DNA of 22,006 bases from IMG/VR virus record IMGVR_UViG_3300020172_004948, positions 1-22,006 of that record. The stretch is one strand, 5' to 3'. The notes beneath the pieces are model-generated. The model saw only the letters and a program-made list of their open reading frames with translations, ran no database searches and was not told the DNA's origin. Shown here piece after piece: positions 878 to 21,800 of this stretch. Source of the DNA: a virus. Position 1 is the stretch's first letter, and every line of letters starts with the position of its first letter. A program made the translations under genes and the position numbers.

Positions 878-1276
878 TTATATATTAATATCGTGTGTGT
901 TGACATAGTCTACGCTGACCTGTCCGTCGTTCATCCCTGGCTCTTTCTTTACGAATCTCCTCTGGCAATAGACAACTGTCACACTTTCTTCATTCTTTGC
1001 CTTGCTATTCTTCTTGGCGAACTCTGCAACCTTTTTAAGAGTTGTCTCGGTAGGAATAATATCTTTTGTTGCAATGATAACATGACTTCCAGGAATTCCC
1101 TTTGCATGCATCCATATATCAGAAGAATCTGCTATGTTGAACGTAAGATGGTCATTAGACTTAGCATCTCCACCGACATAAACCGTGAATCCGTCTATAT
1201 CCATTTTTTTGATATTTGGGAAGATGTTTTTCTTTCCTTCTGACAAGAATCTCTTGAAATTGTTTATATTTTTCAT
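878..1276 (-). CDS. stand-alone NFACT-R (DUF814) domain protein
   Basis: 132 residues, almost all NFACT-R domain. After a short N-terminus the protein reads GFTVYVGGDAKSNDHLTF, then DIWMHAKGIPGSHVII, a TTLKKVAEFAKKNSKAK helix, VTVVYCQRRFVKKEPGMNDG and QVSVDYV. These match the conserved NFACT-R blocks (G-x-N-D, D-W/L-W-x-H, PGSHV, AA..YS, V.Y...+.V+K..G..G.V). In RqcH/Rqc2/NEMF and Fbp this domain binds the tRNA anticodon arm and 60S/50S RNA. Here it has no NFACT-N, HhH or coiled-coil parts. The first residues, MKNINNFKRFLSE, resemble the T4 capsid-targeting signal (MKTYQEFIAE) and end in an LxE site of the type T4 gp21 cuts. A late element sits 4 bases before the ATG. Family call is strong; role is unknown. 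Confidence 0.82.
   Translation of the reverse strand: MKNINNFKRFLSEGKKNIFPNIKKMDIDGFTVYVGGDAKSNDHLTFNIADSSDIWMHAKGIPGSHVIIATKDIIPTETTLKKVAEFAKKNSKAKNEESVTVVYCQRRFVKKEPGMNDGQVSVDYVNTHDINI
879..888 (-). promoter_or_regulatory. late promoter element TTAATATATA
   Basis: Exact copy of the recurrent element, 16 bases before the ATG of the peptidase gene. It lies inside the end of the NFACT-R gene: the last sense codons and the TAA stop of that gene (878-880) are read through the same bases. Confidence 0.65.
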
Positions 1277-1280
1277 AGGT

Positions 1281-1290
1281 TATATATTAA
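1281..1290 (-). promoter_or_regulatory. late promoter element TTAATATATA, 4-base spacing
   Basis: Exact copy, separated from the NFACT-R ATG by only ACCT. If it acts like a T4 late -10 box, transcription starts at or next to the ATG. Confidence 0.65.
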
Positions 1291-1301
1291 GTACAGAAAA
1301 C

Positions 1302-1331
1302 AAAAAAGCTGCTCTTTAAGAGCCGCTTTTT
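1302..1331 (-). terminator. rho-independent terminator after the endonuclease gene
   Basis: A-rich/T-rich flanks around stem AAAAGC-GCTC / GAGC-GCTTTT with one mismatch and a short loop. It overlaps the stop codon (1316-1318) of the minus-strand gene and precedes the late element at 1281. Confidence 0.6.
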
Positions 1332-3253
1332 AAAATCATTTTTTCGAATTTTATCTTTCCACAATCATATATTTTCAGTATATTATTTTCTAAGGCATAT
1401 TTAGATTCGGTCAATATCGTTTTTGTTTTTGATTTCTTGTACCTGGATTTGTGTACTCTTTGTCCATCTACTAGATATTTATAATCAGGTTGGCTTTCTC
1501 CTATTTTTTTAAAACCAAGCTTGTAGTATAGATTTCCTATTGACCAATCTCTATCGGCATAACTTATTACACGACTCGGATTATATGTTTTTACAAAATA
1601 TTCAAATAGTTTTGATGCACCACCAACCACATTTGTGTTTCTACTACTACAAAATCTATTTAGATTCCATCCATTATCTGACATCAAATTTCTACCCTCA
1701 AAGTGATCAAAAGTCATTATACTAACTAATATTTCATTGTGAAATAATCCTAGCTTAAGACTGCTGTTTACTTTGCCTTGTATATGGTTTTCCTCTAAAA
1801 AAGAAGAAGATTCTTTGGTGTCTACCTCGGCTATATTGCATTTTCTTGCAAAAATTTTGATATTTGTGTTGCTGACTAGATTTGATATTTGAGATTCGAC
1901 TACTTCTCTTCTAAATATCCAATCGTCTTCCCATATATGTACGATTCTAATTTCTTTGTCAAGAAAGTGTTTTGTTTTGTCGATGTGATAGTTTTTTTCC
2001 TTGTACTTGTTCGAGTGCCAATATAATCCATTGAATTCGAATCCTAATTTTAGTTCTGGCAAATAGATATCGATTTCTAGCCCGTCTCTATATCCTGGTA
2101 TTATCTCGCCACTATATACGCTTTCTATAAATTCATATAAAACTTTCTCTTTGATTGAAGATTTTGCTGATATAGGATGGCATATAGTGCATAGTGGATT
2201 GTTTTCTTTATTTCTTTTTATATAATTGTCGACATATATTTCAAACGTGTGTTCATTTCCACAGTCACAATTGAACAAGCTCAATGATGAATCGATATAT
2301 TTTATATAAAATGGATTCTTTGCGATATCATATGTCTTTTTTCTATAAATTTCGGATTTTTGTATGTTGTCAACGCCGTGCTTCTCTATGCTCATCAGTT
2401 TAATCTTTTCGTTGTAATCTGATGATTTTGTATGGTGGTCGACTCCATACCTTTCTATATTTGTTTCTTTTTTCTTTTCTTTGAAATCAGAGCTTTGGCA
2501 ATACCACTCAGCGCCATATCTGTCGAGATTTGTCTTCTTGACAATATCTTTGTATTCATTCGTTTTTGAGTAATGTGTTACACCATGCTTCTCTAAGTTT
2601 GTAATCAAAGTCTTTTCTTTATAATCGTCGGTTTGCGTATACCAGTCGACACCATATTTTAAATTATTAGTCTCTACACACATATTCTTATATTCTTCTG
2701 TTTGTGAGAAATGTTCTTTTCCGTATTTTTCTAAAATGGACTCTCTACGCTTTTCTTTAAAAATTTCTAGTTGTGATATATGGTCGACACCATACTTTTC
2801 TTTGATATTTTTTTTCCATTTTTCCTTAACATCTTCGTTTTGGAATGACGACTTTGTACCATATCTTTCCAAATTGGTTTCTTCTGCCTTCTTTTTGATA
2901 TTCGAATTCTTTGCGACATTGGTAACTCCATACTTTTCTAAGGTAGTCTTTTGTCTTTTGTCTTTTGTTGCCTTATCAGATTGTGCACATTTTGCAGAGC
3001 AATATTGCCTATATCCGTCTAACCAATTCTTGTTAAATGTCGTGCCTTTGCCACATTTGCAAGTAAATGGTACGTCTATATCATTTGTCCAATGCCACAT
3101 CTTTTCTTTAAATGATATATTATCGATATTTATACAAAAATCGTCTATTGACTTTTTTAAATCAGTATAATTCTTGTCAAAGAATGATTCTCGCAATCTA
3201 GACGACGAGCCATCCAGTATTTCTAATATAGTTTTTTTTCTATCTTCTCTCAT
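1316..3253 (-). CDS. VSR-like putative homing endonuclease with 23-residue YGV repeats
   Basis: 645 residues. The N-terminus has a zinc-ribbon-like CKCGKG...CSAKCAQ (about 65-90). Next come nine tandem 23-residue units built on TNLEKYGVxxxxQ (about 103-309), then a second CDCG...CTIC pair (about 329-358). Around 365-450 is a VSR/EDxHD-type nuclease: LEIDIYLPELKLGFEFNG, YWHS, a HIDKT segment and HIWEDDW. The C-terminal part (about 465-615, with NHIQGK, GGASKLFEYF, ISYADRDWSIGN and YYKLGFKK) resembles a GNAT-like domain often fused to such phage nucleases. Proteins of this architecture are usually free-standing homing endonucleases, and the repeats probably bind DNA. It lies between the capsid terminator and the NFACT-R gene and has its own late element 4 bases before the ATG. 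A non-homing role is possible. Confidence 0.72.
   Translation of the reverse strand: MREDRKKTILEILDGSSSRLRESFFDKNYTDLKKSIDDFCINIDNISFKEKMWHWTNDIDVPFTCKCGKGTTFNKNWLDGYRQYCSAKCAQSDKATKDKRQKTTLEKYGVTNVAKNSNIKKKAEETNLERYGTKSSFQNEDVKEKWKKNIKEKYGVDHISQLEIFKEKRRESILEKYGKEHFSQTEEYKNMCVETNNLKYGVDWYTQTDDYKEKTLITNLEKHGVTHYSKTNEYKDIVKKTNLDRYGAEWYCQSSDFKEKKKETNIERYGVDHHTKSSDYNEKIKLMSIEKHGVDNIQKSEIYRKKTYDIAKNPFYIKYIDSSLSLFNCDCGNEHTFEIYVDNYIKRNKENNPLCTICHPISAKSSIKEKVLYEFIESVYSGEIIPGYRDGLEIDIYLPELKLGFEFNGLYWHSNKYKEKNYHIDKTKHFLDKEIRIVHIWEDDWIFRREVVESQISNLVSNTNIKIFARKCNIAEVDTKESSSFLEENHIQGKVNSSLKLGLFHNEILVSIMTFDHFEGRNLMSDNGWNLNRFCSSRNTNVVGGASKLFEYFVKTYNPSRVISYADRDWSIGNLYYKLGFKKIGESQPDYKYLVDGQRVHKSRYKKSKTKTILTESKYALENNILKIYDCGKIKFEKMILKSGS
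2327..2947 (-). repeat. nine tandem 69-base units coding 23-residue YGV repeats
   Basis: The translated units align without gaps on a core of aromatic-Gly-(Val) preceded by TNLE(K/R) and followed about ten residues later by Tyr/Phe-Lys-Glu-Lys. DNA identity between units is modest, so this is an old protein repeat and not a recent duplication. Two further units of the same type occur in the protein at 8459-8851. Confidence 0.75.
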
Positions 3254-3367: not shown

Positions 3368-5113
3368 TTAGTTTAAATACTGAGCGTTGTCAGTTACAAC
3401 TAAAGTCATAAACTGTTTTTGTGGAAACCATCCCACTTCGGCAACTGCGTATCTAGATCTTAGTAACATTCTTGGAGCAAAAGTAGCTTCAGAAATAACT
3501 GAGATAGATTGTGCCATCAAGTAAGGTACGAAGATGATACCTGGTTGGTCTGGGTTGTTTTTTCTACCCAAAACGATTCTGTTGTCGTTGTATTTCATGT
3601 ATGGATCAACATAGATAGCGATATCTCCGATTGAACCTACTGGATATAACTGACCTTGACCGTTTAATTTAGATTTAACTGGGTTGATAGTGTAACCAGC
3701 GATATCTTGTAAAGCAGCAGCTAAACCTCCGTTTGTTACAAGGTATTGAGCAGGTCCTACTCTTCCTTCTGTAGCGATGAAGTTAGAAGCGTGAGCGATT
3801 TTAGTGATCAATTTTCTTTGAACAGCGTGAGTAGTCTCTCCACCAGCCATAGCGTTAACATAAGATGTATCTAAATCGAAGATTGTAGATGCAGTAGCAG
3901 AAACTGAAGTTTTACCAGTAGCTAAAGGCGCAGAAGTTCTGTTTAATGAACCCATTTCGAAGATTTTCGCAACGATTTGTTTAGAGATTGTTTGAGACAA
4001 TTCGTTAACAAGGATAGATTCCATTTTTTGAACGATATCCATACCAGTGTTAGCTTTGATGTCTTCGATCTCAGTTCTTCTTAAAGCTGAAGATACTTCG
4101 ATAGTACCAACTGCAACTGTTTTAGAAGAGATTTTTGGTCCGATAACTCCTGCGTAAGAATCATCGTCTTCTGATCTTGACATTGGGTAAGCACCTTGTG
4201 CAGCAGTAGGAGGAACAGCTCCGAAGTTTGTTGAGAAACCTGGGATATGGTCTTCTAATGCAGATACTAGCTCAACAGTTCCTGTTGCAGCAACGTTACC
4301 TACAAGGACGATTTGTGCAGTCATTGCGGCAGTAGAGTTGAAAGTGTTTCTTGTTGCGTCGAAATCCCATAATGTAGTAGCACTTGCAACAGCAGTGTGT
4401 GCAGTGTTAGCTTGTCTGAATGCTCTGAAGATTGGGAAACCATCGATTCTTGAGAATCCTAAGAACTCAACAACACCTGCTCTAGAACCACCGTTGATAT
4501 CGTCTAATCTAGAGAAAGTTCCTGCAGTAGGAGCTCCAGAAATAGTAGAAGCAGTTGCGATAGTCGCGAACAATCTACCACCGTTCAATCCACCAGTTAC
4601 TTCGCTAACAGCGTTGTATGTTGCAGCAGTTTTTGCAAGCTCAACTCTGATCGCAGCAGAAACTGTAGTCAAAGTAGCAGATGCTAAGTTTAATTTGAAA
4701 ACTTGTGGTCTTTCTGATTGATCACCTAATCTAGTGTCATCGTATTGGAAATCGATGTAAAGTAAGTCGATTTTCGGACCTGGAGTTGGCTTAACAGCAA
4801 CTAAGTCTAAACCGATTGTTTGAGCAGCGATTTTCATAGCTACTGGCAATAAGTTTTGTCCTACGTCTCCTGATCCAGTTACTGCACCAGCAGCTAAACC
4901 GTTAGTTTGTCCTGAATAATATCCAGGTTGTGCAGCCAATACACCACCCATACCAGCAACGTTAGATGCGTTTACGTATGCATTTTCGTTGATTGAGTGA
5001 AATTCAGCGTATTCAGCCATCCATTCAACTCTATCACCTGTAACTCCCATGTTCTCTAAAACCGGAGCCCATTTCTTTGTAGCTTTCGCTTTGTCTATTC
5101 TAATGTGTGACAT
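3368..5113 (-). CDS. major capsid protein, T4 gp23-like
   Basis: 581 residues from the preferred start. The N-terminus (MSHIRIDKAKATKKWAPVLE) and the region NLLPVAMKIAAQTIGLDLVA followed by VKPTPGPKIDLLYIDF match the gp23 family, where LLP, D-(I/L)-V-x-V-x-P and TGP are conserved. The C-terminal stretch with RYAVAEVGWFPQKQF is also typical. It forms the hexamers of the prolate or isometric head. T4 gp23 loses its N-terminus to gp21 at an IxE or LxE site, and SINE near residue 44 is a candidate cut here. An in-frame extension to 5194 exists, but it would translate the A-rich leader and the promoter-like element. The protease-scaffold gene lies directly upstream and a strong terminator directly downstream, as expected for the head module. 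Confidence 0.93.
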   Translation of the reverse strand: MSHIRIDKAKATKKWAPVLENMGVTGDRVEWMAEYAEFHSINENAYVNASNVAGMGGVLAAQPGYYSGQTNGLAAGAVTGSGDVGQNLLPVAMKIAAQTIGLDLVAVKPTPGPKIDLLYIDFQYDDTRLGDQSERPQVFKLNLASATLTTVSAAIRVELAKTAATYNAVSEVTGGLNGGRLFATIATASTISGAPTAGTFSRLDDINGGSRAGVVEFLGFSRIDGFPIFRAFRQANTAHTAVASATTLWDFDATRNTFNSTAAMTAQIVLVGNVAATGTVELVSALEDHIPGFSTNFGAVPPTAAQGAYPMSRSEDDDSYAGVIGPKISSKTVAVGTIEVSSALRRTEIEDIKANTGMDIVQKMESILVNELSQTISKQIVAKIFEMGSLNRTSAPLATGKTSVSATASTIFDLDTSYVNAMAGGETTHAVQRKLITKIAHASNFIATEGRVGPAQYLVTNGGLAAALQDIAGYTINPVKSKLNGQGQLYPVGSIGDIAIYVDPYMKYNDNRIVLGRKNNPDQPGIIFVPYLMAQSISVISEATFAPRMLLRSRYAVAEVGWFPQKQFMTLVVTDNAQYLN

Positions 5114-5150
5114 AATTAATTTTGTTTTTTTTTTGTTTTTTGTTTTTTCT
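5114..5150 (-). promoter_or_regulatory. A-rich leader (translation signal) of the capsid gene
   Basis: The mRNA-sense leader is a 37-base run of A with occasional C, ending in AATTAATT before the ATG, with no Shine-Dalgarno sequence. Bacteroidota genes characteristically replace SD pairing with A-rich leaders, so this is probably the high-efficiency ribosome site of the capsid mRNA. It also argues for the start at 5113. Confidence 0.55.
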
Positions 5151-5157
5151 AATAATC

Positions 5158-5168
5158 TATATATATCG
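5158..5168 (-). promoter_or_regulatory. late-promoter-like element, capsid gene
   Basis: CGATATATATA in the coding direction, 44 bases before the capsid ATG. It is a variant of the TTAATATATA element; the first bases differ, so the call is weaker than at other genes. Confidence 0.45.
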
Positions 5169-5208
5169 TCCAAAAACCTTAATTTCACAGGCATGGACTT
5201 TTTATGGA

Positions 5209-7374
5209 TTATACGTTTTTGAATCTTTCCATAATAGCAGTAACGTCATTGTCAGACAGCTTATCTTCTTGGATAAGAGCTTCGTGAGAAACTAGTTTTT
5301 TAGATACTGATTCGTTTTTTTTGAGGTTTCTAGTCGCCCAGAAATGCTCAACTTGACCTTCGGTCGTTAGAACTTCTGCAGGATATAATCTAGCTTGTGA
5401 AATGATAGATTTTTTCGCTGATTCGTTCATTTGTTCCCAGATAGCCTTTGTGTTCTCAGGCATCATTCTGATTACTCTTTCTTCAAGAGATTCGTTTTTA
5501 GCAGATAGCGCTTCAGAGATCAATGACAATACTTCTTTTTGTGTGAAGTAGCTGCTTTCGTTTATGTGCAACTTTACTGTATCTTGTTCTTCGTTAGTCA
5601 AAGCATAGTAGCTATCAACTTGTGATTTAGACATGAACTTCAAGAAATTCAAATCTGATGTCTCAGAAACTTTACGTTTTTTAGCTTCTTCGATTAATTT
5701 ATCAATAGATTCTGACAATTCTGAATCAGAACTACCGTTTACCTCATATTCGTTTGGTCCACAGTCTTCATCTTCTTCTACTTCTTCGTTTTCTTCGTGT
5801 GCGTGAACATGCTCCGGTGCAATTTCTGCGATTCCGTTTTCTTCTTCGTTTTCTTCCTCAGAAGCATAAGCATTTTCTTCTACTTTTTCTTCTTCGCTTT
5901 CTTCCTCAGAAGCATAAGCATTTTCTTCTGCATTTTCTTCTTCTTTCTCTTCTTCAAGATCTTCGAATCCAGCTGCATTCAATGATGGGAAAGCTCCTTC
6001 TGATTCGTTCAATTTTCCACCGTTTAATTTCTCAACGATCAATCCTTGGTAAGAGATAGATTTGTCTAAGTTCTCAGCGATATATTCAGAGTAAGCGATG
6101 TTGTCATCTAAGTGTTCAGCGATGTATTCAGAGTAAGCGATGTTACCTTCAACGTGCTCAGCCAAGTATTCAGAGTAAGCGATAGAGTTATCAACGTGCT
6201 CAGCGATATACTCGCCATAAGAGATAGATTTGTCTAAGTTCTCAGCGATATATTCAGAGTAAGCGATGTTCTTGTCTAAGTTTTCTGCCAAGTATTCAGA
6301 ATACGCGATGTTCTTTTCTAAGTTCTCAGCAACATATTCTGTGTAAGAAATGTTTTTGTCTAAGTTCTCAGCAACGTACTCAGAGTAAGCGATGTTTTTG
6401 TCTAAGTTTTCAGCAACATATTCTCCGTAAGCGATAGACTTGTCTAAGTTTTCAGCTAGATATTCAGAATAGTTTACTGCCTTTTCAAGATTCTCAGCTA
6501 AATAATCGTTGTGTTTGATCAATTTGTCTGTAGTTTCTTTTAAAGATTTGTTTTCGTTTACCATGATTTGAACTTTCTCTGCCAAATAGTCTAAATATTT
6601 AACTACTTGTGAGTTAGTGCTGTTCAATTCATCATAATACTCAAGCAATTGCTCAAGTTTTTTAGGGTTCATATTCCCTTTAGTAATGGCGGTCTTAACT
6701 TCTTTTTTAGTTGACGCCAACTCTTTAACCAAATACTGAGAGTAATCGGTCAGTTGTTGTTTAGTAACAAATTCGTTGTTGTTCATATTAAATAACTCTT
6801 CCGTTTTTGACTCATTGGATAAATCGTATATCCTAAAGTTAGATTGTGGGTCTTTGTAACCTAGCGACTCATTAAGAATCTTTACGCTCATCTTCGCCGA
6901 TGCGAAACCTGGGTCCGCAACGATGTCATAAGTGAATAGCTTCTTCAATGATACGGTTCCGTCAGATTCGGTAATACCGGCGGCTCTTGATGAAACGAAA
7001 ATAGGACAACCATCGTCAACCAACGATTTTGCCTCTTTTCCCCAATAAGTGCTCAATAATCTGATTTCACCTTCAACCAAGTTTGATTCTTTTACGTAAT
7101 TAGCTTTCGTTATTACGTGAGAAGCTCTTGAAAGCGAAGTATCGAAAACATCCGGGTGATCGAATTCACCGTAGACAATTCCAAGATTGTTCATTCTTTC
7201 GTTCATCTCCTCTAAAGCAGGAAGGAATTTTGCAGCAGTATATATTCTTTCGTTTCGGTTTTTGACTCCGAACTCAGTAAACGTACCACCTAAAATATAG
7301 TCCTTCTTACCAGTGCTTGAACTTTCTCTTACAAGAGAGTTCGTTGAATTTTCTACAATTAGAACTGGTTTCAT
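5209..7374 (-). CDS. prohead protease fused to a repeat-rich scaffold (gp21/gp22-like)
   Basis: 721 residues. Residues 1-170 are an S80-type prohead protease: VYGEFDHPDV (H73), SRASHVI, CPIFVSSRAAG (S128/S129) and VADPGF, in the order seen in T4 gp21 (about 210 residues). The remaining 550 residues replace a separate core protein: a lysine-rich helical region (200-285), eleven 14-residue units of the type YVAENLDKNIAYSE (about 289-443), a strongly acidic Glu-rich block (about 470-545) and a helical C-terminus (about 560-721). Fourteen residues equal two heptads, consistent with a coiled-coil rod. The likely role is an assembly core with a built-in protease that digests itself and cleaves the capsid protein. 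The gene lies directly upstream of the capsid gene. The start is supported by the late element 34 bases upstream. Confidence 0.87.
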   Translation of the reverse strand: MKPVLIVENSTNSLVRESSSTGKKDYILGGTFTEFGVKNRNERIYTAAKFLPALEEMNERMNNLGIVYGEFDHPDVFDTSLSRASHVITKANYVKESNLVEGEIRLLSTYWGKEAKSLVDDGCPIFVSSRAAGITESDGTVSLKKLFTYDIVADPGFASAKMSVKILNESLGYKDPQSNFRIYDLSNESKTEELFNMNNNEFVTKQQLTDYSQYLVKELASTKKEVKTAITKGNMNPKKLEQLLEYYDELNSTNSQVVKYLDYLAEKVQIMVNENKSLKETTDKLIKHNDYLAENLEKAVNYSEYLAENLDKSIAYGEYVAENLDKNIAYSEYVAENLDKNISYTEYVAENLEKNIAYSEYLAENLDKNIAYSEYIAENLDKSISYGEYIAEHVDNSIAYSEYLAEHVEGNIAYSEYIAEHLDDNIAYSEYIAENLDKSISYQGLIVEKLNGGKLNESEGAFPSLNAAGFEDLEEEKEEENAEENAYASEEESEEEKVEENAYASEEENEEENGIAEIAPEHVHAHEENEEVEEDEDCGPNEYEVNGSSDSELSESIDKLIEEAKKRKVSETSDLNFLKFMSKSQVDSYYALTNEEQDTVKLHINESSYFTQKEVLSLISEALSAKNESLEERVIRMMPENTKAIWEQMNESAKKSIISQARLYPAEVLTTEGQVEHFWATRNLKKNESVSKKLVSHEALIQEDKLSDNDVTAIMERFKNV
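5840..5940 (-). repeat. 51-base duplicated segment in the acidic block of the scaffold
   Basis: A 26-base identical core (5856-5881 and 5907-5932) recurs at a 51-base interval, coding EENAYASEEE twice. It is an in-frame internal duplication inside Glu-rich sequence. Confidence 0.7.
6045..6512 (-). repeat. eleven tandem 42-base units in the scaffold gene
   Basis: Period 42 bases, coding 14-residue units with core Y(L/V/I)AE(N/H)(L/V)(D/E)xx(I/V)xY. Several neighbouring units are nearly identical at DNA level, so copy number may vary by slippage or recombination. The frame is kept throughout. Confidence 0.85.
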
Positions 7375-8458: not shown

Positions 8459-8851
8459 ATGATACTTACAAGAGAAATTGAAATAAAAATAAACGAGTCT
8501 AACTATCAGTACTACGAAGAATTGGGATATGACATCTCGATTGGCGAGACCATAACCATACCGGTAGAGTTGCTGCCGAACGGATCGCATTATAAAGTAA
8601 AGTGCAAATGCGACGGCTGTGGAATAGAGAAAGAAGTCATATACAAAAACTACCTAAAATACGACAACGAAAAGTGGGGAGACTATTCCTGTAGAAAATG
8701 CTCGGAGACCAAGCGAAAGGAAACGCTGAGAAAGAACTTCGGAGTAGACTACCCCATACAGAACAAAAAAGTATTGTCGAAGATGAAAAACACCCTTATA
8801 AAGAAATACGGGGTCGACAATATCTCAAAAAAGAACAAAAAAGATGAATAA
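8459..8851 (+). CDS. zinc-finger protein with two YGV repeats, no nuclease domain
   Basis: 130 residues. A four-cysteine zinc finger (CKCDGCG about 50-56, CRKC about 79-82) is followed by two 23-residue units (ETLRKNFGVDYPIQ and NTLIKKYGVDNIS). Both elements match the N-terminal, presumably DNA-binding, part of the endonuclease at 1316-3253. It may be a remnant of a homing endonuclease or a small DNA-binding protein derived from one. The reading frame is intact and the gene overlaps the RNase R start by 8 bases, so the two are probably translationally coupled. No Shine-Dalgarno sequence precedes the ATG. The domain call is moderate; the function is unknown. Confidence 0.6.
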   Translation: MILTREIEIKINESNYQYYEELGYDISIGETITIPVELLPNGSHYKVKCKCDGCGIEKEVIYKNYLKYDNEKWGDYSCRKCSETKRKETLRKNFGVDYPIQNKKVLSKMKNTLIKKYGVDNISKKNKKDE

Positions 8852-10727
8852 AATCAAAGAAGGCGACATATTCGAGTCGCAATTGGAATTCTCCATGTCG
8901 GGAAACGCCACCATAAAGATAGACGGCAGGGAAATCTTCATACACAAGAAGAAGACCGCCAACGCGCTTCACCTGGACACGGCAAGAGTCGAGATATTCC
9001 AAGGACAGAAAAAGCTTGAGGGAAAAGTGATTGAAACGATATCCAGATACAAGACGGAATTCGCCGGAACAGCACAGGTAAACGGCGAGACCGTATTCGT
9101 TGTACCAGACAGCAACAGGATGATAGTAGACTTCTATATAAAAGGAAGCGAGAATATAGAAAACGGACAAAAAGTCCTTGTAGAGTTTCTAGACTGGGAT
9201 CTCGGAAAGAAGTCACCAAGAGGAAAGATCAAGAAAATTCTTGGGCGTTCAGGAGAAAACAACGCAGAGATGAACGCGATAATGTACGAATACGGCCTAC
9301 CAGTCGAATTTCCACAAGAAGTCATAGACGAATCAGAGCTCGTTCCCGAAGAGATTAGCGAGGACGAGATAAAGTCGAGAAGAGACATGCGATCCACCGT
9401 CACTATAACGATAGACCCGGTAGATGCCAAGGATTTCGACGACGCCATATCTATCGACATGAGAGATCTAAACAACATAGAAGTCGGTATTCACATAGCA
9501 GACGTCTCGCACTACGTAAAGTCAGGGACAGAGCTGGACAAAGAAGCGTTCAAGAGAGCCACTTCGGTATATCTAGTAGATAGATGCGTGCCTATGCTCC
9601 CAGAGAGGCTCTCAAACGGGATATGCTCTTTGAAGCCAAACGTGGACAGGCTTGCGTTCTCGGTAGTTCTAACTCTAGACAAAGACGGAAACATAAAAGA
9701 CACTTGGCAGGGAAAGACCGTCATACACTCTGATAGAAGGTTCGCATATGAAGAGGCACAAGATATAATCGAAGGGTTGGATGGAGACTATTTCAGAGAA
9801 ATCAGGCAGCTAGACTCTATGGCGAGAAAAATAAGAAAGTCCAGGATAAAAGAAGGATCTATCGAGATGGGTGGATTGGAAGTGAAGTTCGTTCTGGCAG
9901 AAGACAACAAAAAGCCGATAGGAGTCTACTTCAAAGAGCAGAAAGAAGCGAACAAGCTTATCGAAGAATACATGCTTCTGGCGAACAAGTCTGTCGCCAA
10001 GCGGCTTGCCACAGACCAATGGCACAACGTATACAGAGTTCACGACCGACCGAACGGAGAAAAGCTGGCAGCACTTCAGAGCATATGTACCAACTTTGGA
10101 TACACGCTAGAGCTAGACGATGAAGGAGACTCGCTGAAGAAGAACCTAAACCAGCTTCTAAAGGAAATCAAAGGAAAGCCAGAAGAAAACATGATCGAGA
10201 CGCTGGTTACTAGATCGATGTCAAAAGCGGTATATACCATAAAGAACATAGGACACTATGGATTGGGTTTCACTCACTATTCGCACTTCACATCGCCGAT
10301 AAGGAGATATCCCGACCTCATAACTCACAGGATACTATTCGATAGACTGACCACCAACAAGCAGGGAAATCCTACGGTCATAGAAGATCAGGCAAAATGG
10401 TGCTCTAGCAGAGAGCTGATAGCATCCAAGGCGCAGCGAGAATCTATAAAGTACAAGCAGATTGAATATCTGCAAGACAAAGTCGGGCAAGTATTCGACG
10501 GAATCGTAACCGGAGTGATGGAGAGAGGAATCTATGCGGAAATAGAGGAAAACAAATGCGAGGGCATGATAAGGCTAGAGACGTTGAACGGAAAATGGAC
10601 GGCGAACGTAGACAAATACTTCGCGAGCAACGAGCTTGGAGACCAGATCAGGCTTGGGGATCCTATTAAAGTGGTGGTGGCATCGGTCGACCTAGAAAAA
10701 AGGCAGATAAATTTCACAAGATTCTAA
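8844..10727 (+). CDS. rnr: RNase R/RNase II family 3'-5' exoribonuclease
   Basis: 627 residues. N-terminal OB (cold-shock-like) domains occupy about 1-150. The RNB catalytic domain begins near 175 with TITIDPVDAKDFDDAISI, whose D191, D197, D199 and D200 correspond to the four metal-binding aspartates of RNase II. HIADVSHYV, PMLPERLSNGICSLKP and GLGFTHYSHFTSPIRRYPDL complete the signature; the last is the RNR form. A C-terminal S1 domain (about 535-627) ends the protein. Compared with E. coli RNase R it lacks the N-terminal helix-turn-helix and the Lys-rich tail. It degrades RNA processively from the 3' end, including structured RNA. The gene is second in a plus-strand island without a late promoter element, so early or middle expression is likely. 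All catalytic residues are present. Confidence 0.93.
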   Translation: MNKIKEGDIFESQLEFSMSGNATIKIDGREIFIHKKKTANALHLDTARVEIFQGQKKLEGKVIETISRYKTEFAGTAQVNGETVFVVPDSNRMIVDFYIKGSENIENGQKVLVEFLDWDLGKKSPRGKIKKILGRSGENNAEMNAIMYEYGLPVEFPQEVIDESELVPEEISEDEIKSRRDMRSTVTITIDPVDAKDFDDAISIDMRDLNNIEVGIHIADVSHYVKSGTELDKEAFKRATSVYLVDRCVPMLPERLSNGICSLKPNVDRLAFSVVLTLDKDGNIKDTWQGKTVIHSDRRFAYEEAQDIIEGLDGDYFREIRQLDSMARKIRKSRIKEGSIEMGGLEVKFVLAEDNKKPIGVYFKEQKEANKLIEEYMLLANKSVAKRLATDQWHNVYRVHDRPNGEKLAALQSICTNFGYTLELDDEGDSLKKNLNQLLKEIKGKPEENMIETLVTRSMSKAVYTIKNIGHYGLGFTHYSHFTSPIRRYPDLITHRILFDRLTTNKQGNPTVIEDQAKWCSSRELIASKAQRESIKYKQIEYLQDKVGQVFDGIVTGVMERGIYAEIEENKCEGMIRLETLNGKWTANVDKYFASNELGDQIRLGDPIKVVVASVDLEKRQINFTRF

Positions 10728-11208: not shown

Positions 11209-12912
11209 TTAGAATTCGAATTCTCCACCGCCTTGTGCAGGAGCTTCAGGTGCAGCTTGACCACCACCTTGTGCAGGAGCTTCAGGAGCAGCTTGAGCAC
11301 CTCCTTGGGCAGGCATTTCGCTACCGCCTTGTGCAGGCATTCCTCCTTCTGATCCAGCACCACCTTCCGGTCCAGCGCCAACACCACCAAGACCATCTTT
11401 TGCCCAGTATTTTAGGTTTTCCGCCTTTTCTTCTGGAGTAAGCTTGAATACGTTGTCCATAATCCATTCGATGTGGAAATAAGGCTTCTCGCCATTCATG
11501 ATACCAGTAAGCGTGGTTATCGCTTCGGCTCTCTTTGCCAAGTTGTTTATCTTCTTCCACTCCTCGAATATCTGGTTCGTGTAGAAAACGATATCCATCT
11601 GGTTAAGAATAATCTCATCTTCTTTCAGCTCAGGAAACTCGATAAGCATCTGCAGCTTTAGAGGCTTGACTATAAGCTCTTTGAAGTTTGCTCTAATTCT
11701 TCCGATAAAGTTATGGAATTTGATTTCGTCTCTCGTCATCTCGGCAGCGCCGTCTACGAGATTTCCTCCACCGCTTTCGCCTTCGAATCGGGTCAATGGA
11801 ATTTTAGATGCTCTTTTAAGCGCCTGGTGAAACCATTTTAGCATAGATTCCTCGTTGAGGTCATGTCCTTGTGGAGAGACAAGCTCCATATTTGGAGTTC
11901 CTCCGTCTCCTTCTGGAAACCATATCTGCTTGTTGTATGGAAGATGCTTCGCCCCGTTAAGAGTAAGCGTTCCCAATGTATCATCCCATTCGACTTCTTC
12001 CGAATAGTCATGAATAAGTTGTCCAATCTGTTCTTCTGCCCTTTGTCTAGAAAGGCCTTTGATTGGAATAGTAAACTTTTGATATATCGTCGCGTTTATC
12101 ACGTTGAACATGATTCGAGTCTGCTCGAGAATCTTCAATTGATTGTATGGCTTGATAAGTCCTTCTACATAAGAAGTTTCAGAATAATCATTTTGTGTAG
12201 AATAGGAAACAAAGACAATCTGTGAATCTAGGAAGATCCTTCTCAATTGAGGATCTTCAGGAAACTGTATCCAAAGGTGTCCTACGTTTGGCTCGTATGC
12301 AGGAACAAGCGTTTCTGGTCTAAGCCTGTTGAAAGCGATGATATTCTTCTTCTTGTCGTCATATACAATCTCGATCGCGACATAGCCGTCTATGAGAAAG
12401 TCTTTCATCATGTTCCATGCGGTTATGCTATCAGAGAATCCATACTTGCTGTATATCTTTTCAAAATATTCTTGGTATTTGTCGGTTATTTCTTGAGAAT
12501 AGTCGTTAGAAATCGGCCTAGGTGAACAAAAGTCTCTATCGTCGTTGTATACGATGCATTCGTCAGCGACTGCGCTGACCATGTCTCTTATCTCGTCCTT
12601 GATAGAATATTCTCTAAGAATCCTTCTCTTGTCGCCATATGCCTTGTCTAGGTAAGGAATCGATTTCCTGTTTAGAACAGACGCGACGGCCCTTTGACTA
12701 AAAAAATCATACATCGAATTTCCTTTGGCAGCGTATGGATCTTCATTGATTCCGATACCTACCTGGTTCCTGATAATCATATCATCATAGTTCATGCCAT
12801 AGTTCGACAGTGTTCTCAATATCCGGCTGAAGAGTCCTTTGTTCTCTACCGCTGAGTTTACGAAGCCCATGCCCTGTCCTTCTTTGTTGCTATTGTAATT
12901 ATATGATGCCAT
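11209..12912 (-). CDS. portal protein, T4 gp20-like
   Basis: 567 residues from the chosen start. The core (about 60-510) has the gp20 layout: a charged clip/stem region, LIKPYNQLKILEQTRIMF followed by INATIYQKFTIPI, the paired SRQRAEEQ helix and a late SGGGNLVDGAAEMTRDEIKF segment. It forms the dodecameric ring at the head vertex through which DNA is packaged. The last 60 residues are a Gly/Ala/Pro/Gln-rich tail not usual in gp20. An in-frame extension to 12999 would translate the upstream terminator and the promoter, so the ATG at 12912 (MASYNYNSNKEG), 22 bases after a late element, is preferred. The neighbouring gene order differs from T4 because the RNase R island lies between portal and protease. 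Confidence 0.88.
   Translation of the reverse strand: MASYNYNSNKEGQGMGFVNSAVENKGLFSRILRTLSNYGMNYDDMIIRNQVGIGINEDPYAAKGNSMYDFFSQRAVASVLNRKSIPYLDKAYGDKRRILREYSIKDEIRDMVSAVADECIVYNDDRDFCSPRPISNDYSQEITDKYQEYFEKIYSKYGFSDSITAWNMMKDFLIDGYVAIEIVYDDKKKNIIAFNRLRPETLVPAYEPNVGHLWIQFPEDPQLRRIFLDSQIVFVSYSTQNDYSETSYVEGLIKPYNQLKILEQTRIMFNVINATIYQKFTIPIKGLSRQRAEEQIGQLIHDYSEEVEWDDTLGTLTLNGAKHLPYNKQIWFPEGDGGTPNMELVSPQGHDLNEESMLKWFHQALKRASKIPLTRFEGESGGGNLVDGAAEMTRDEIKFHNFIGRIRANFKELIVKPLKLQMLIEFPELKEDEIILNQMDIVFYTNQIFEEWKKINNLAKRAEAITTLTGIMNGEKPYFHIEWIMDNVFKLTPEEKAENLKYWAKDGLGGVGAGPEGGAGSEGGMPAQGGSEMPAQGGAQAAPEAPAQGGGQAAPEAPAQGGGEFEF
11231..11302 (-). repeat. 36-base direct repeat in the portal C-terminal tail
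   Basis: Two nearly identical copies starting at 11231 and 11267 code for (Q)AAPEAPAQGGG. A more diverged GGSEMPAQGG unit lies next to them. Confidence 0.7.
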
Positions 12913-13026: not shown

Positions 13027-13473
13027 TTAGATATAGAAGCTTCTGTTTACGACTTTCAATTCGTCTCGATTTACATCGATGTCGCCAAGTAGCTTCTGAA
13101 CGTCGTTCCTGTAGTTTGTAAGATGTCCTAATAGCTTTTCATAAGACTTCACCGATTGGCGATCTAAGAACAGGTTTCCGTCCGACCATCTAATCTCTCC
13201 GCCTTGCTTTATCTTGGCATTTACACGATGAGTGTTCGTGTCTGATTGAAAGATGCACATAATCGTGTTCGCTTCTTTTTCCTTTACTATAAGAGCAGAA
13301 TGGAACTTCGCGTTCTTGAATGGTCTAACTTCTCCGACCAGTATATTGAATTTGAGATTGTTTATTTTTTTTCTCTCCAAATCGTTTGCATGGTCGATAA
13401 GATCGATCGCCTTTTGCTTTTGTCCGAAAGATGATAGTTTTTCCGCTGCTGATATGTAAGTAGAGTATTTCAT
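13027..13473 (-). CDS. unknown protein with a host-type promoter
   Basis: 148 residues, no recognised family. The N-terminal 35 residues (MKYSTYISAAEKLSSFGQKQ onwards) look like a helical hairpin, followed by a small beta-rich part (about 45-110) and a C-terminal helix. There is no membrane segment or signal peptide. It forms a single-gene unit: a TATCTTTG box lies upstream, followed by an A-rich leader, and a strong terminator lies downstream. Unlike its neighbours it has no late element, so early expression by host RNA polymerase is likely, despite its position between the portal gene and another late gene. Confidence 0.65.
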   Translation of the reverse strand: MKYSTYISAAEKLSSFGQKQKAIDLIDHANDLERKKINNLKFNILVGEVRPFKNAKFHSALIVKEKEANTIMCIFQSDTNTHRVNAKIKQGGEIRWSDGNLFLDRQSVKSYEKLLGHLTNYRNDVQKLLGDIDVNRDELKVVNRSFYI

Positions 13474-14262: not shown

Positions 14263-14790
14263 ATGATAAATTCCAAGCCCAACAACAGCAAATACCATGG
14301 TGGAAACTTCATACCGACCAACAAAGACAAAGTGCTAAAGCTGAACGCGCAAGGCGGAGTCTATTACAGAAGCTCTTGGGAGCAAAAGATAATGGTCTGG
14401 TTGGATCTTAAAGAAGAAATATTCCAATGGGGCGCAGAATGCCTAGAAATACCTTATCAGATGACTCACTTCGAAAACGGAGACTCGAGAATAAAGGCAC
14501 ATAGATACTACCCAGACTTCTTCTACAGAATGAGAGGAGCAGACGGCGTCTTGAAAGAAGTCGTGGTCGAGGTCAAGCCTATGAAAGAATACAAGATGGT
14601 TATAGCTCTTACAGAAGGCAAGCTCACGGTTCCCGATAAAGGAATGAAGAAGCTAAAAAGCTTTGAGTACGACCTGAAGATGGCTTATAAGAACAAGCAA
14701 AAATGGGAGACGATGATAAACTGGTGCAACAAAAAGGGATTCTCGTTCATCATAATAACCGAGGAAAACCTAAAAAACTTTAGTGTATAA
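14263..14790 (+). CDS. head completion protein, T4 gp4-like nuclease fold
   Basis: 175 residues. VYYRSSWEQKIMVWLD (about 33-48), FQWGAECLEIPY, HRYYPDFFYRM (about 80-90) and EVVVEVKPMKEY (about 99-110) are the gp4/gp50 signature. PD at 84-85 with E103-x-K105 forms a PD-(D/E)xK-type active site. The C-terminus WETMINWCNKKGFSFIIITE is likewise typical. T4 gp4 acts after packaging, trimming or sealing the DNA end so that the tail can join. The ATG at 14263 lies directly after the shared promoter. The gene converges on the membrane-protein gene, overlapping by 11 bases. It is the only plus-strand gene in this part of the head region. Confidence 0.9.
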   Translation: MINSKPNNSKYHGGNFIPTNKDKVLKLNAQGGVYYRSSWEQKIMVWLDLKEEIFQWGAECLEIPYQMTHFENGDSRIKAHRYYPDFFYRMRGADGVLKEVVVEVKPMKEYKMVIALTEGKLTVPDKGMKKLKSFEYDLKMAYKNKQKWETMINWCNKKGFSFIIITEENLKNFSV

Positions 14791-20228: not shown

Positions 20229-20879
20229 TTATTTTATAGGACAATTCGAAGCGGAGTAGATATATCTTTCATTTCTTTTTAGCTTCACACCCATCGCCAC
20301 TGCGGCGGTTTCGATATCGGTAAGGCATTCCCCATCAGCACCGCCTACGAGAATGACGTCTCGAACCTCATTCAATCCTTCATTTACGCTTTGTGCCTCG
20401 ACAACTTCCTCGAAAAGCTCATGCAGCTTCTTTGGCATGTGGTACCATTTATGATTGTTTGCAACATAGACTATGAGAGTTCCTTCGTTTGTTGGAAAGA
20501 AGTCTCCTTTCTTCAGCTCGTTAGCGTCTTCTTTTTCGCTTACTTCCTTATAGATGTCCGGGCTAAGAATTTTTTTGTAGAAGTCCGCATCCACGTCGTA
20601 GTTGTACCTCTTCTCGATAAGCTCTGCCTGGTTTGGAAAATGATATAGGTCTTTGTGTACTGGGATTTCAGGATCTTCATCATAGAGATAGTCCTTGTCG
20701 ACATTCTTCCCGTCGACATGATTGTCCCAGATTTGATAGACTCTATCGAATCTGTTGCAATATTTTTTCAGTTCGTTCAAATATGCGTCATTGAAAAATT
20801 CTTTGAACGATTTTTGTACATCAACTACAATAAGAATGTCTTTACTACTATGGCTTTCGAACGTTTTTAGGTATCTCAT
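20229..20879 (-). CDS. nicotinamidase-like cysteine hydrolase (isochorismatase fold)
   Basis: 216 residues. ILIVVDVQKSF gives D20; AELIEKRYNYDVDADF gives K90; LVGGADGECLTDIETAAVAMG gives C185. Together these are the Asp-Lys-Cys triad of the isochorismatase-like family. WDNH (D52, H54) and H75 or H80 fit the metal site of nicotinamidases (D-x-H...H), favouring nicotinamide to nicotinate over isochorismatase chemistry. An insert of about 65 residues between Lys and Cys (NEGTLIVYVANNHKWYHMPK and surroundings) is longer than usual. The N-terminus MRYLKTFESH precedes the fold and resembles the signal shared with three other proteins here. A late element variant ends 4 bases before the ATG, so the enzyme appears to be made late, unlike typical metabolic takeover genes. 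The substrate is inferred only. Confidence 0.72.
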   Translation of the reverse strand: MRYLKTFESHSSKDILIVVDVQKSFKEFFNDAYLNELKKYCNRFDRVYQIWDNHVDGKNVDKDYLYDEDPEIPVHKDLYHFPNQAELIEKRYNYDVDADFYKKILSPDIYKEVSEKEDANELKKGDFFPTNEGTLIVYVANNHKWYHMPKKLHELFEEVVEAQSVNEGLNEVRDVILVGGADGECLTDIETAAVAMGVKLKRNERYIYSASNCPIK

Positions 20880-20883
20880 ATAC

Positions 20884-20893
20884 TATATATTAT
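20884..20893 (-). promoter_or_regulatory. late promoter element ATAATATATA, 4-base spacing
   Basis: One-base variant of the consensus separated from ATG 20879 by GTAT. Confidence 0.52.
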
Positions 20894-20903
20894 TTTCTAT
20901 TTT

Positions 20904-21131
20904 TTAAAAATGTCTTGATAGTATAAAATCAACGGCTTTGATTTCTTTATCATAGTTGCTTATATCAAATTGATCAACAGAATCATCTCTCAAGTTTTTT
21001 AGCCTAAATCTCCATTCAAGAAGTTTATCAACGTCACCTGGTTGGAATTTGTTTTTAAAATATCCTTTATAGGTTGCAGTATTTATAAACTCTAGTTCTT
21101 TAAAACCTTCAAATAATTTTATATACTTCAT
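20904..21131 (-). CDS. small protein with MKxIxxFExF N-terminus
   Basis: 75 residues, no recognised family. It begins MKYIKLFEGFKELEF, the clearest copy of the N-terminal sequence shared with the 878, 20229 and 21218 genes, and KLFE would be an LxE-type protease site. The rest is charged and probably helical (KLLEWRFRLKNL). A late element lies 21 bases upstream, with an ATT-repeat leader (21132-21150). A head-internal protein is a reasonable guess. Confidence 0.6.
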   Translation of the reverse strand: MKYIKLFEGFKELEFINTATYKGYFKNKFQPGDVDKLLEWRFRLKNLRDDSVDQFDISNYDKEIKAVDFILSRHF

Positions 21132-21152
21132 ATATTATTATTATTATTTTAG

Positions 21153-21162
21153 TATATATTAA
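21153..21162 (-). promoter_or_regulatory. late promoter element TTAATATATA
   Basis: Exact copy, 21 bases before ATG 21131 and just downstream of the terminator of the 21218 gene. Confidence 0.65.
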
Positions 21163-21164
21163 AT

Positions 21165-21195
21165 AAAAAACTCATCATTTCTGATGAGTTTTTTT
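21165..21195 (-). terminator. terminator after the 21218 gene
   Basis: Perfect stem CTCATCA/TGATGAG with TTTC loop, six A before and seven T after. Confidence 0.88.
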
Positions 21196-21217
21196 AATTT
21201 ATAGTTTCTGGATTTGA

Positions 21218-21766
21218 TTAAACTGGAAGTTCTTCTTCACCTTCTTCTTCTTGTGCCTGACCTTCTTCTTGTCCTTGACCTTCTTCTTGTCCTTGACCTT
21301 CTTCTTGTCCTTGACCTTCTTCTTGTACTTGACCTTCTTCTTGTCCTTGACCTTCTTCTTGTCCTTGTGGCTCTTCAAACTCGCCTTCTTGTACCTGAGC
21401 TTGTGGTTGAGCTTGAGTCTGAGCTTGCGGTTGAGCTTGTGGCTCGCCTTCAGTCTGTACCTGAACCTGTCCTTGACCTTGTGGTCCGCCCATTAAAGCG
21501 TTTCCAGGAATCTTCTCAACGTCTATGTTGTTAAGAGTTACCCATTTTACAATTTCTTCAGCGATGTCAACATCACCGAAAAACTGGCGAAGGTTTTTTC
21601 CTGTCGTGTCTTTAACTTTCTTAACATAAGAATTTATCAATGATTGAGAAATGTCGATCATAGTTTTAACCTTATAGATATCGTTCACTTGAAGAACAGC
21701 TTCTTTGATTATCTCTTCTCTGTTTTTTTGAACTCTAAAACTTTCAAATTGTCTGATGTGTTTCAT
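21218..21766 (-). CDS. protein with MKHIRQFESF start and Gln/Glu/Gly repeat tail
   Basis: 182 residues, unknown family. Residues 1-12 carry the shared N-terminal motif. Residues 13-95 form a helical domain (IIKEAVLQVNDIYKVKT, INSYVKKVKDTTGKNLRQFF). From about 98 the protein is low complexity: Gly/Gln, then alternating Gln-Ala/Pro, then about six (G/V)QEEGQ units and an acidic end. It has its own late element and terminator, which suggests substantial expression. An acidic, disordered tail and a capsid-targeting-like start suggest a head-internal or scaffold-accessory protein. That is inference. Confidence 0.62.
   Translation of the reverse strand: MKHIRQFESFRVQKNREEIIKEAVLQVNDIYKVKTMIDISQSLINSYVKKVKDTTGKNLRQFFGDVDIAEEIVKWVTLNNIDVEKIPGNALMGGPQGQGQVQVQTEGEPQAQPQAQTQAQPQAQVQEGEFEEPQGQEEGQGQEEGQVQEEGQGQEEGQGQEEGQGQEEGQAQEEEGEEELPV
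21238..21385 (-). repeat. 18-base tandem repeats coding (G/V)QEEGQ
   Basis: About six near-identical 18-base units, followed by looser Gln/Ala/Pro codon repeats up to about 21480. The units are in frame inside the 21218 gene. Confidence 0.8.
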
Positions 21767-21790: not shown

Positions 21791-21800
21791 TATATATTAA
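21791..21800 (-). promoter_or_regulatory. late promoter element TTAATATATA
   Basis: Exact copy, 24 bases before ATG 21766, followed by an A-rich leader. Confidence 0.65.

Follow-up and report, generated by a model that had tools for sequence, protein, structure and literature searches.

The 22,006-base IMG/VR record IMGVR_UViG_3300020172_004948, hereafter called the window, encodes four proteins of otherwise unrelated sequence that begin with a similar short tag, and comparable tags appear to occur on about 60-120 proteins per genome in its huge-phage relatives. We read this shared start, with a probability of roughly 85%, as a capsid-targeting sequence (CTS) of the type known from phage T4. 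The preliminary description of this DNA had suggested such a signal from the common start on three neighbouring genes and a more distant NFACT-R gene, and all four starts were confirmed on the minus strand. The register of the tag, its modularity, a fixed Glu junction, the capsid-protein site SINE|N that matches it and an upstream element of late type all support the capsid-targeting reading, and the tag very likely works like a CTS. Judged from sequence, it appears to display the features of that class with two exceptions, a cut site in some of the tags and proof of packaging.

The window is a member of a lineage of 634-642-kb phages, as its capsid protein is 72.6% identical to that of LR745206 (634,780 bp) and 72.2% identical to that of LR756502 (642,428 bp). 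Remoter are LR756504 (636 kb, 51.9%) and LR756501 (735 kb, 50.5%), and remotest are LR756500 (462 kb, 35%) and the Lak phages (29%). The 634-, 636-, 642- and 735-kb relatives are presumably the huge-phage genomes of PMC7162821, excerpts of which describe Mahaphage as a single clade for genomes >634 kb with Bacteroidetes as predicted hosts. Using the standard genetic code, open reading frames (ORFs) of at least 100 aa cover 86-89% of each of the four largest genomes, and genes were counted by simple ORF calling without a trained gene finder. LR745206, LR756502 and LR756504 are referred to below as the three complete relatives.

Three tagged genes of the window are neighbours on the minus strand. 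The gene at 20229..20879 encodes a cysteine-hydrolase-like protein of 216 aa starting MRYLKTFESH, and its tag MRYLKTFE (20856..20879) ends in a possible, non-consensus cut site, TFE|S. The gene at 20904..21131 encodes a 75-aa protein with no assigned family that starts MKYIKLFEGF and carries the tag MKYIKLFE (21108..21131, LFE|G), while the gene at 21218..21766 encodes a 182-aa protein with a Q/E-rich repeat tail, in which the start MKHIRQFESF is followed by a spacer and IIKE|A (21701..21766), a spaced form comparable to that of T4 IPI. The fourth gene, at 878..1276 on the same strand, encodes a 132-aa protein with an NFACT-R RNA-binding domain (Pfam NFACT-R_1, PF05670, E 5.2e-15) behind the tag MKNINNFKRFLSE (1238..1276, LSE|G). 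The codons of these tags vary (AAA/AAG, TTT/TTC/TAT/TAC, GAA/GAG), so the likeness is at the protein level. N-termini that vary among homologues had been proposed as an argument against packaging; the 20229 protein retains the start M[RK]-x-[LI]-[KR]-x-[FY]-[ED] in all 80 homologues listed, whereas the NFACT-R tags do vary but keep their Glu junction. The family of the 21218 protein likewise retains [IL]I[KSR]E|[AS] in 80 of 80 homologues listed. In the structure model of the 20229 protein, residues 1-9, corresponding to the tag, are disordered (pLDDT <50). This protein had been called an enzyme. Up to E 0.01 it matches nothing in Pfam, PHROG or NCBIfam, and the best Foldseek matches of its model are nicotinamidase/isochorismatase-like hydrolases, albeit weak ones (E 4.9e-3, TM about 0.37-0.44). 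D20 and C185 are invariant in 24 sequences and may be its catalytic residues. Elsewhere in the window, the protein at 13027-13473 (minus strand, MKYSTYISAAEKLSSFGQ...) is untagged, though family members elsewhere carry a tag, including its reciprocal best hit in LR756502 (MKHLRKFEELNYSTYTSAVDKL).

The scan of phage proteins for the motif, as called for in the preliminary description, revealed a strong enrichment at gene starts over internal Met residues in the three complete relatives. A DNA pattern derived solely from the window, ATGARRNNNHTNNNNNNNTTYGAR, matched 23, 24 and 15 times in LR745206, LR756502 and LR756504, against 2, 3 and 0 matches of the backward pattern used as control, and 1, 3 and 1 times in LR756501, LR756500 and Lak-B5 (control 0, 2 and 0). 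At the protein level, the expression M[KR]x[ILMVF]xxF[ED] was found at 28, 25 and 18 ORF starts of the three complete relatives versus 4, 0 and 0 internal Mets, with 0 starts versus 4 internal Mets in LR756501 and 3 versus 1 in the window. The main form of the tag was defined by a 10-residue profile built from 74 tagged starts with a threshold of at least 8 bits, and it is present at 64/916, 61/951 and 41/911 gene starts in LR745206, LR756502 and LR756504, compared with 1/3062, 1/3246 and 1/2589 internal Mets. These counts, which are partly circular since the seed sequences of the profile came from the scanned genomes, sum to 166 of 2778 gene starts versus 3 of 8897 internal Mets. The same profile gave 4/978 versus 0/3796 in LR756501 and 3/25 versus 0/132 in the window.

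Two independent checks gave the same picture. Among 80 IMG/VR loci picked by their capsid gene, 20 of 870 distinct ORFs were tagged versus none of 3777 internal Mets. In addition, all M[KR] starts, taken with no motif as seed, were strongly enriched for [FY]7, [ILV]4, [KR]5 and [FY]10, with z values in LR745206, LR756502, LR756504 and LR756500 of 16.4, 19.7, 7.1 and 7.5 for [FY]7 and of 11.6, 16.6, 7.9 and 7.0 for [ILV]4. In 15 IMG/VR contigs, mostly picked for holding at least one strict match, the pattern gave 277 matches versus 7 for the control; a gp23 match over the cut-off was present in 6 and a phrog_207 match in 7 of them, and most of these contigs are probably fragments. Contigs of 180-220 kb hold about 40 tags each, and one locus (L216, IMGVR_UViG_3300042559_001610) has six tagged starts inside 3.4 kb, indicating that tagged genes can be clustered. 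Among capsid-matching smaller phages (MA9V-1, pT24, PTm1, PAU and MaF61), a looser FE/FN-type DNA pattern showed no clear excess, while Lak-B5 had 9 matches versus 1 in the control; a scan for a phi-x-E peak in MA9V-1 (160 of 213.5 kb) and Lak-B5 found a weak one or none.

The motif MKxIxxFExF of the preliminary description was too narrow, representing one of several tag forms, and limiting the tag to it was rejected, as the FNE, LFE and FxxF-phi-NE forms are borne by the same sorts of protein. In all four large genomes, the tripeptide [ILVMFY]NE has a sharp peak at residues 6-20, with, for example, 46, 19 and 16 occurrences per five-residue bin versus about 8 in LR745206 and 48, 32 and 18 versus about 8 in LR756501. 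The usual form in the latter is M[IK]xx[FY]xx[FY][ILV]NE[AGSE], also written MIKxYxxFINE. A looser tag class, class B, was counted as the excess over chance hits, about 17-22 per genome as estimated from internal Mets (58/2373, 47/2511, 45/2033 and 51/3015 in LR745206, LR756502, LR756504 and LR756501). In the same order, the class B excess amounts to about 40, 56, 23 and 66 genes and, together with the main form, to about 104, 117, 64 and 70 tagged genes. A fructose-bisphosphatase of LR756504 (MSKLKTIGQFIISE) was dropped as a class B false positive, since its Pfam match begins at residue 5 and MSKLKTIGQFIISE thus looks like the enzyme's own start.

The proteins behind the tags are unrelated, as had been noticed for those in the window. 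After removal of the first 25 residues, 169 tagged proteins >60 aa from the three genomes and the window, including NFACT-R, fell into 146 clusters at E < 1e-3, the largest having four members. An alignment of 115 tagged proteins of the main form and class B gave the consensus MKxLKxFExF with almost no conservation beyond it, and 22 Pfam families were found among the 115 scanned. The enzymes identified include PPK2, two NUDIX proteins, Sa_NUDIX, a T4 Rnl1-type RNA ligase and cyclase-like, DHH and HD proteins, and other tagged proteins have UPF0227, OmpA and peptidoglycan-binding domains. LR756501 encodes two PPK2 genes (152222 and 447874), of which one is extended at the N-terminus and bears a T4-like tag and the other is shorter.

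A view of the tag as an exchangeable module comes from the NFACT-R proteins, in which different tags precede the same constant part. Starts from the capsid-linked loci and 27 NFACT-R loci read, for example, MKYLKYFE|SKK, MNHLKRFE|SKK, MIKKFNSFNE|SKK, MIKKYNYFFE|SKK, MRNLSTFKRFLNE|GKK and MNFKLFTE|GKK, next to MKNINNFKRFLSE|GKK in the window. Counting 72 strings minus 30 register duplicates and 7 unrelated matches leaves 35 distinct tags, 34 of which end in Glu immediately before the constant part ([SGA]?K); in the 35th, MKILSFKHFES|SKDK, the Glu is one residue earlier. Of the 34, 33 have a hydrophobic or aromatic residue two positions before the junction Glu, as read by eye. Reciprocal best hits also swap tag forms, such as MIIKKYIKFINE/EFDHL... 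versus MKYLRTYE/GFDHL..., or MRYLKTFE/S... of the 20229 protein versus MKVIKFSDYLKE/S... of its counterpart in LR756501, and an untagged orthologue, MNKSFKLG..., begins at the junction of MISKFSDMVNE/NISSKFKLG.... One NFACT-R orthologue (L052; LR756502, gene at 229253) has a tag-like KFDKFNE|GKK after about 97 extra residues and without a Met there, and its tag may be internal or its start non-ATG.

The end of the tag resembles a site in the capsid protein. Asn is the most over-represented residue before the tag Glu (observed/expected 82/27, 107/23, 65/28, 102/27 and 51/23.5), and residues 6-14 show no clear enrichment of phi-D-E, phi-K-E or phi-N-D. The major capsid protein of the window, a member of the gp23 family (3368..5194, minus strand; PF07068, 9.9e-28), contains SINE|N at residues 67-70 (4985..4996), which is present in 80 of 80 IMG/VR capsid homologues. 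More generally, a conserved [EK]YxxxH stretch of the capsid proteins is followed by phi-[NH]-E|[NS], in the part of the protein where T4 gp23 has FLTE|AEIGG, and from this position SINE|N is predicted to be the capsid maturation site. Asn is thus over-represented at P2 of the tags and occupies P2 of SINE|N, pointing to a matching site specificity that supports the CTS reading. In two small proteins (LR756502 80294 and LR745206 93266), FNE| or FIE| leads straight into a segment resembling the capsid N-arm, GMGxVxxAQP, although the tag of the latter, MRYLKPYKKFIE, falls under the 8-bit cut. The same segment is found behind ISE in a third tagged protein and behind ILE in two untagged ones. The direct passage from tag to arm-like segment also speaks for the CTS reading.

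A candidate protease and a candidate binding partner are encoded together next to the capsid gene. The gp21-type protease noted in the preliminary description is indeed present at 5209..7374 on the minus strand (phrog_207, E 1.6e-30, residues 2-261), with GEFDHP at 69 and SSRAAG at 128, and orthologues are found in LR745206, LR756502, LR756501 and LR756504. It is fused to a scaffold-like part that contains twelve [FY]xx[FYL][ILVM]xE units (6031..6597), mostly YSEY[IL]AE, the last eleven of which are spaced exactly 14 residues apart; shuffled sequences contain 0.28 such units. The four orthologues, in the order given above, have 11, 12, 14 and 11 units and six IMG/VR relatives 13, 6, 14, 10, 12 and 2, compared with 0.1-0.4 in shuffles across the set, from which a protease locus without an ORF (L348) was left out. 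The relative with two units (L345) comes from a contig of 429 kb that was retrieved with the tag form of LR756500. This common signature suggests that the tag may imitate one scaffold repeat. Besides the fusion, LR756501 has a second short ORF (11314-11850, 178 aa) that is 44% identical to the protease domain over 115 residues, and contig G003 has a comparable second protease match in a 135-aa frame.

All four tagged genes of the window are preceded by the element AATATATA, at 20884..20891, 21153..21160, 21791..21798 and 1281..1288 (minus strand) upstream of the 20229, 20904, 21218 and NFACT-R genes, respectively. The minus strand of the window has 11 such sites, mostly 10-39 nt before a start codon. 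Scored within 120 nt upstream of genes, the element precedes 12 of 24 homologues of T4 late genes and 6 of 54 homologues of T4 early/middle genes, counts that include LR756501, and 93 of 166 main-form tagged genes versus 362 of 2433 untagged ones, sums that exclude it. Tagged genes differ from untagged (p 1.7e-31) and from early genes (p 2e-9) and are not different from late genes. The element thus behaves like a late promoter element and, by this sequence proxy, the tagged genes appear to be late-type.

The comparison with T4 extends from the register of the tag to its surroundings. According to PMC9026906 (section 2.6, on Mullaney and Black 1996), residues 4 and 7 of T4 IPIII control targeting, while 8 and 10 control processing, and Asp at 10 permits targeting but blocks processing. 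Positions 4 and 7 are also those conserved in the huge-phage tags ([ILV]4 and [FY]7). T4 ipII and ipIII read MKTYQEFIAE|A and ipI reads MKTFKEFTSTTTPVSTITE|A, and tags of LR756500 resemble them closely (MKYIKEYEEFILE|A, MKYILEYEEFLLE|A and MKYIKEYSEFVNE|S, in a scan that also lists T4 ipII and ipIII). The mature form of IPI is given as 76 residues in an excerpt of PMC3012670, and since the gene codes for 95, the cut falls after residue 19; T4 therefore has both a spaced form (ipI) and a compact form (ipII and ipIII), like the huge phages. Further common traits are the MK start, the hydrophobic or aromatic residues at 4 and 7, the phi-x-E end, the unrelated cargo, the late-type upstream element and a gp21-type, phrog_207-family protease gene adjoining the capsid gene. 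In contrast, T4 carries the tag on ipI, ipII and ipIII, whereas about 64-117 proteins per genome are tagged here by excess over control; position 4 is mostly L or I, often followed by K at 5, and P2 is mostly N or F. Also unlike in T4, the protease and a scaffold-like part with 14-residue repeats are fused, and the repeats bear the tag signature. In the giant phages SPN3US and phiKZ, the prohead protease removes N-terminal propeptides of head or host-entering proteins (excerpts of PMC5694885 and PMC10052503); as described there, these are mostly 111-254 residues long (two of 20 and 24) and occur on eight proteins, while the tags here have 8-22 residues and are on many more proteins. Among the open-access papers searched, none dealing with such tags in huge phages came up.

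These similarities suggest how the tag might operate. Late in infection, tagged proteins would be made alongside the head proteins, and residues 1 to 7-10 (MK-x-[ILV]4-x-x-[FY]7, often with a third aromatic residue at 10) would bind the scaffold core, so that capsid assembly encloses the tagged protein. The gp21-type protease would then cut after Glu, in some tags (FNE|S, FLSE|G) immediately past the binding residues and in others (IIKE|A) past a spacer; the trimmed cargo would remain in the head and probably enter the host with the DNA. We infer binding to the scaffold repeats, cutting, packaging and injection from the sequence features above. In T4, internal proteins counter host defences, IPI acting against gmrSD and IPIII in ECOR17 (excerpt of PMC9391042). 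There is about an even chance that the full proposal holds, i.e., that the largest phages pack some 60-120 tagged proteins, including metabolic and RNA enzymes, by means of exchangeable 8-22-residue tags that mimic a scaffold repeat, a single protease first recognising and then destroying both tags and scaffold.

Several observations weigh against the capsid-targeting reading or parts of it. Among the 170 main-form tags, 48 have no phi-x-E at residues 8-30, and the common FE form often has T or K two residues before Glu, including TFE of the 20229 protein. A cut at E8 throughout the main form was considered and not adopted; in tags without a clear site, cleavage may be partial, FE may be accepted or there may be no cleavage. 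Asp replaces Glu in 7 of the 80 listed homologues of the 20229 protein, a substitution that in T4 permits targeting but blocks processing. The likeness to the capsid N-arm is soft, as it concerns a glycine-rich stretch (E about 1e-4 to 1e-6 with composition correction off). A few AATATATA elements precede early-type genes (6/54), and their excess in LR756501 is small (23 of 82 class B genes versus 150 of 892 untagged). Finally, the open-access papers searched yielded no virion proteome for any of these phages.

It is possible, if rather unlikely, that the tag leads into the prohead core while most of the cargo builds the head or stays uncut, with few or none of the proteins injected as effectors. 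The tags without a clear cut site, the homologues with Asp and the proteins resembling the capsid N-arm would fit this, as would the scarcity of known domains among tagged proteins (22 Pfam families in 115), but PPK2, the NUDIX and Sa_NUDIX proteins, the RNA ligase and the cyclase-like, DHH and HD proteins have no obvious role in a head. Judged on the tags, the capsid site and the scaffold repeats, it is decidedly improbable that the tag addresses some other site made by the phage, for instance a membrane or a nucleus-like compartment, and that the Glu end is no protease site. A spacing of hydrophobic and aromatic residues by 3-4 positions may by itself not reveal a destination, yet the register and ending equal those of the proven T4 CTS, Asn at P2 agrees with the capsid site, the scaffold repeats bear the tag signature and tags are exchanged at a fixed Glu. 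Common descent of old paralogues, or an mRNA-level signal aiding translation, can hardly account for the alike starts, for although some tagged proteins form paralogue groups of up to four, the 169 proteins make 146 clusters with unrelated Pfam domains, synonymous codons vary and orthologues swap tag forms at one junction, the NFACT-R exchange already contradicting this explanation.

Other genes surround the protease and capsid genes of the window. ORFs with DUF7487 (Pfam) flank them at 1316-3253 (minus strand) and 8459-8851 (plus strand), and the second, being short, may be a remnant. An RNase II/R-type exoribonuclease (8844-10727, plus strand; RNB 1.1e-107, cold shock and S1 domains) lies amid the head genes but on the other strand, and a TnsA-like endonuclease N-terminal domain (14263-14790, plus strand; 7.3e-13) is encoded near the head genes.

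For the genomes of the largest phages, metagenomes are the only source, and the majority of the genes in them have no known role. An address tag that can be read would forecast which proteins travel in the particle and are the first to act in the host; if the capsid-targeting reading is true, the sequence of an uncultured phage could then suffice to tell its virion cargo. The new aspect supported here is a T4-type tag carried by many more proteins than in T4, in a lineage to which the largest known phages belong, and it would show how the T4 device scales up. Dozens to about a hundred tagged proteins suggest that a large protein load is packed together with the DNA.

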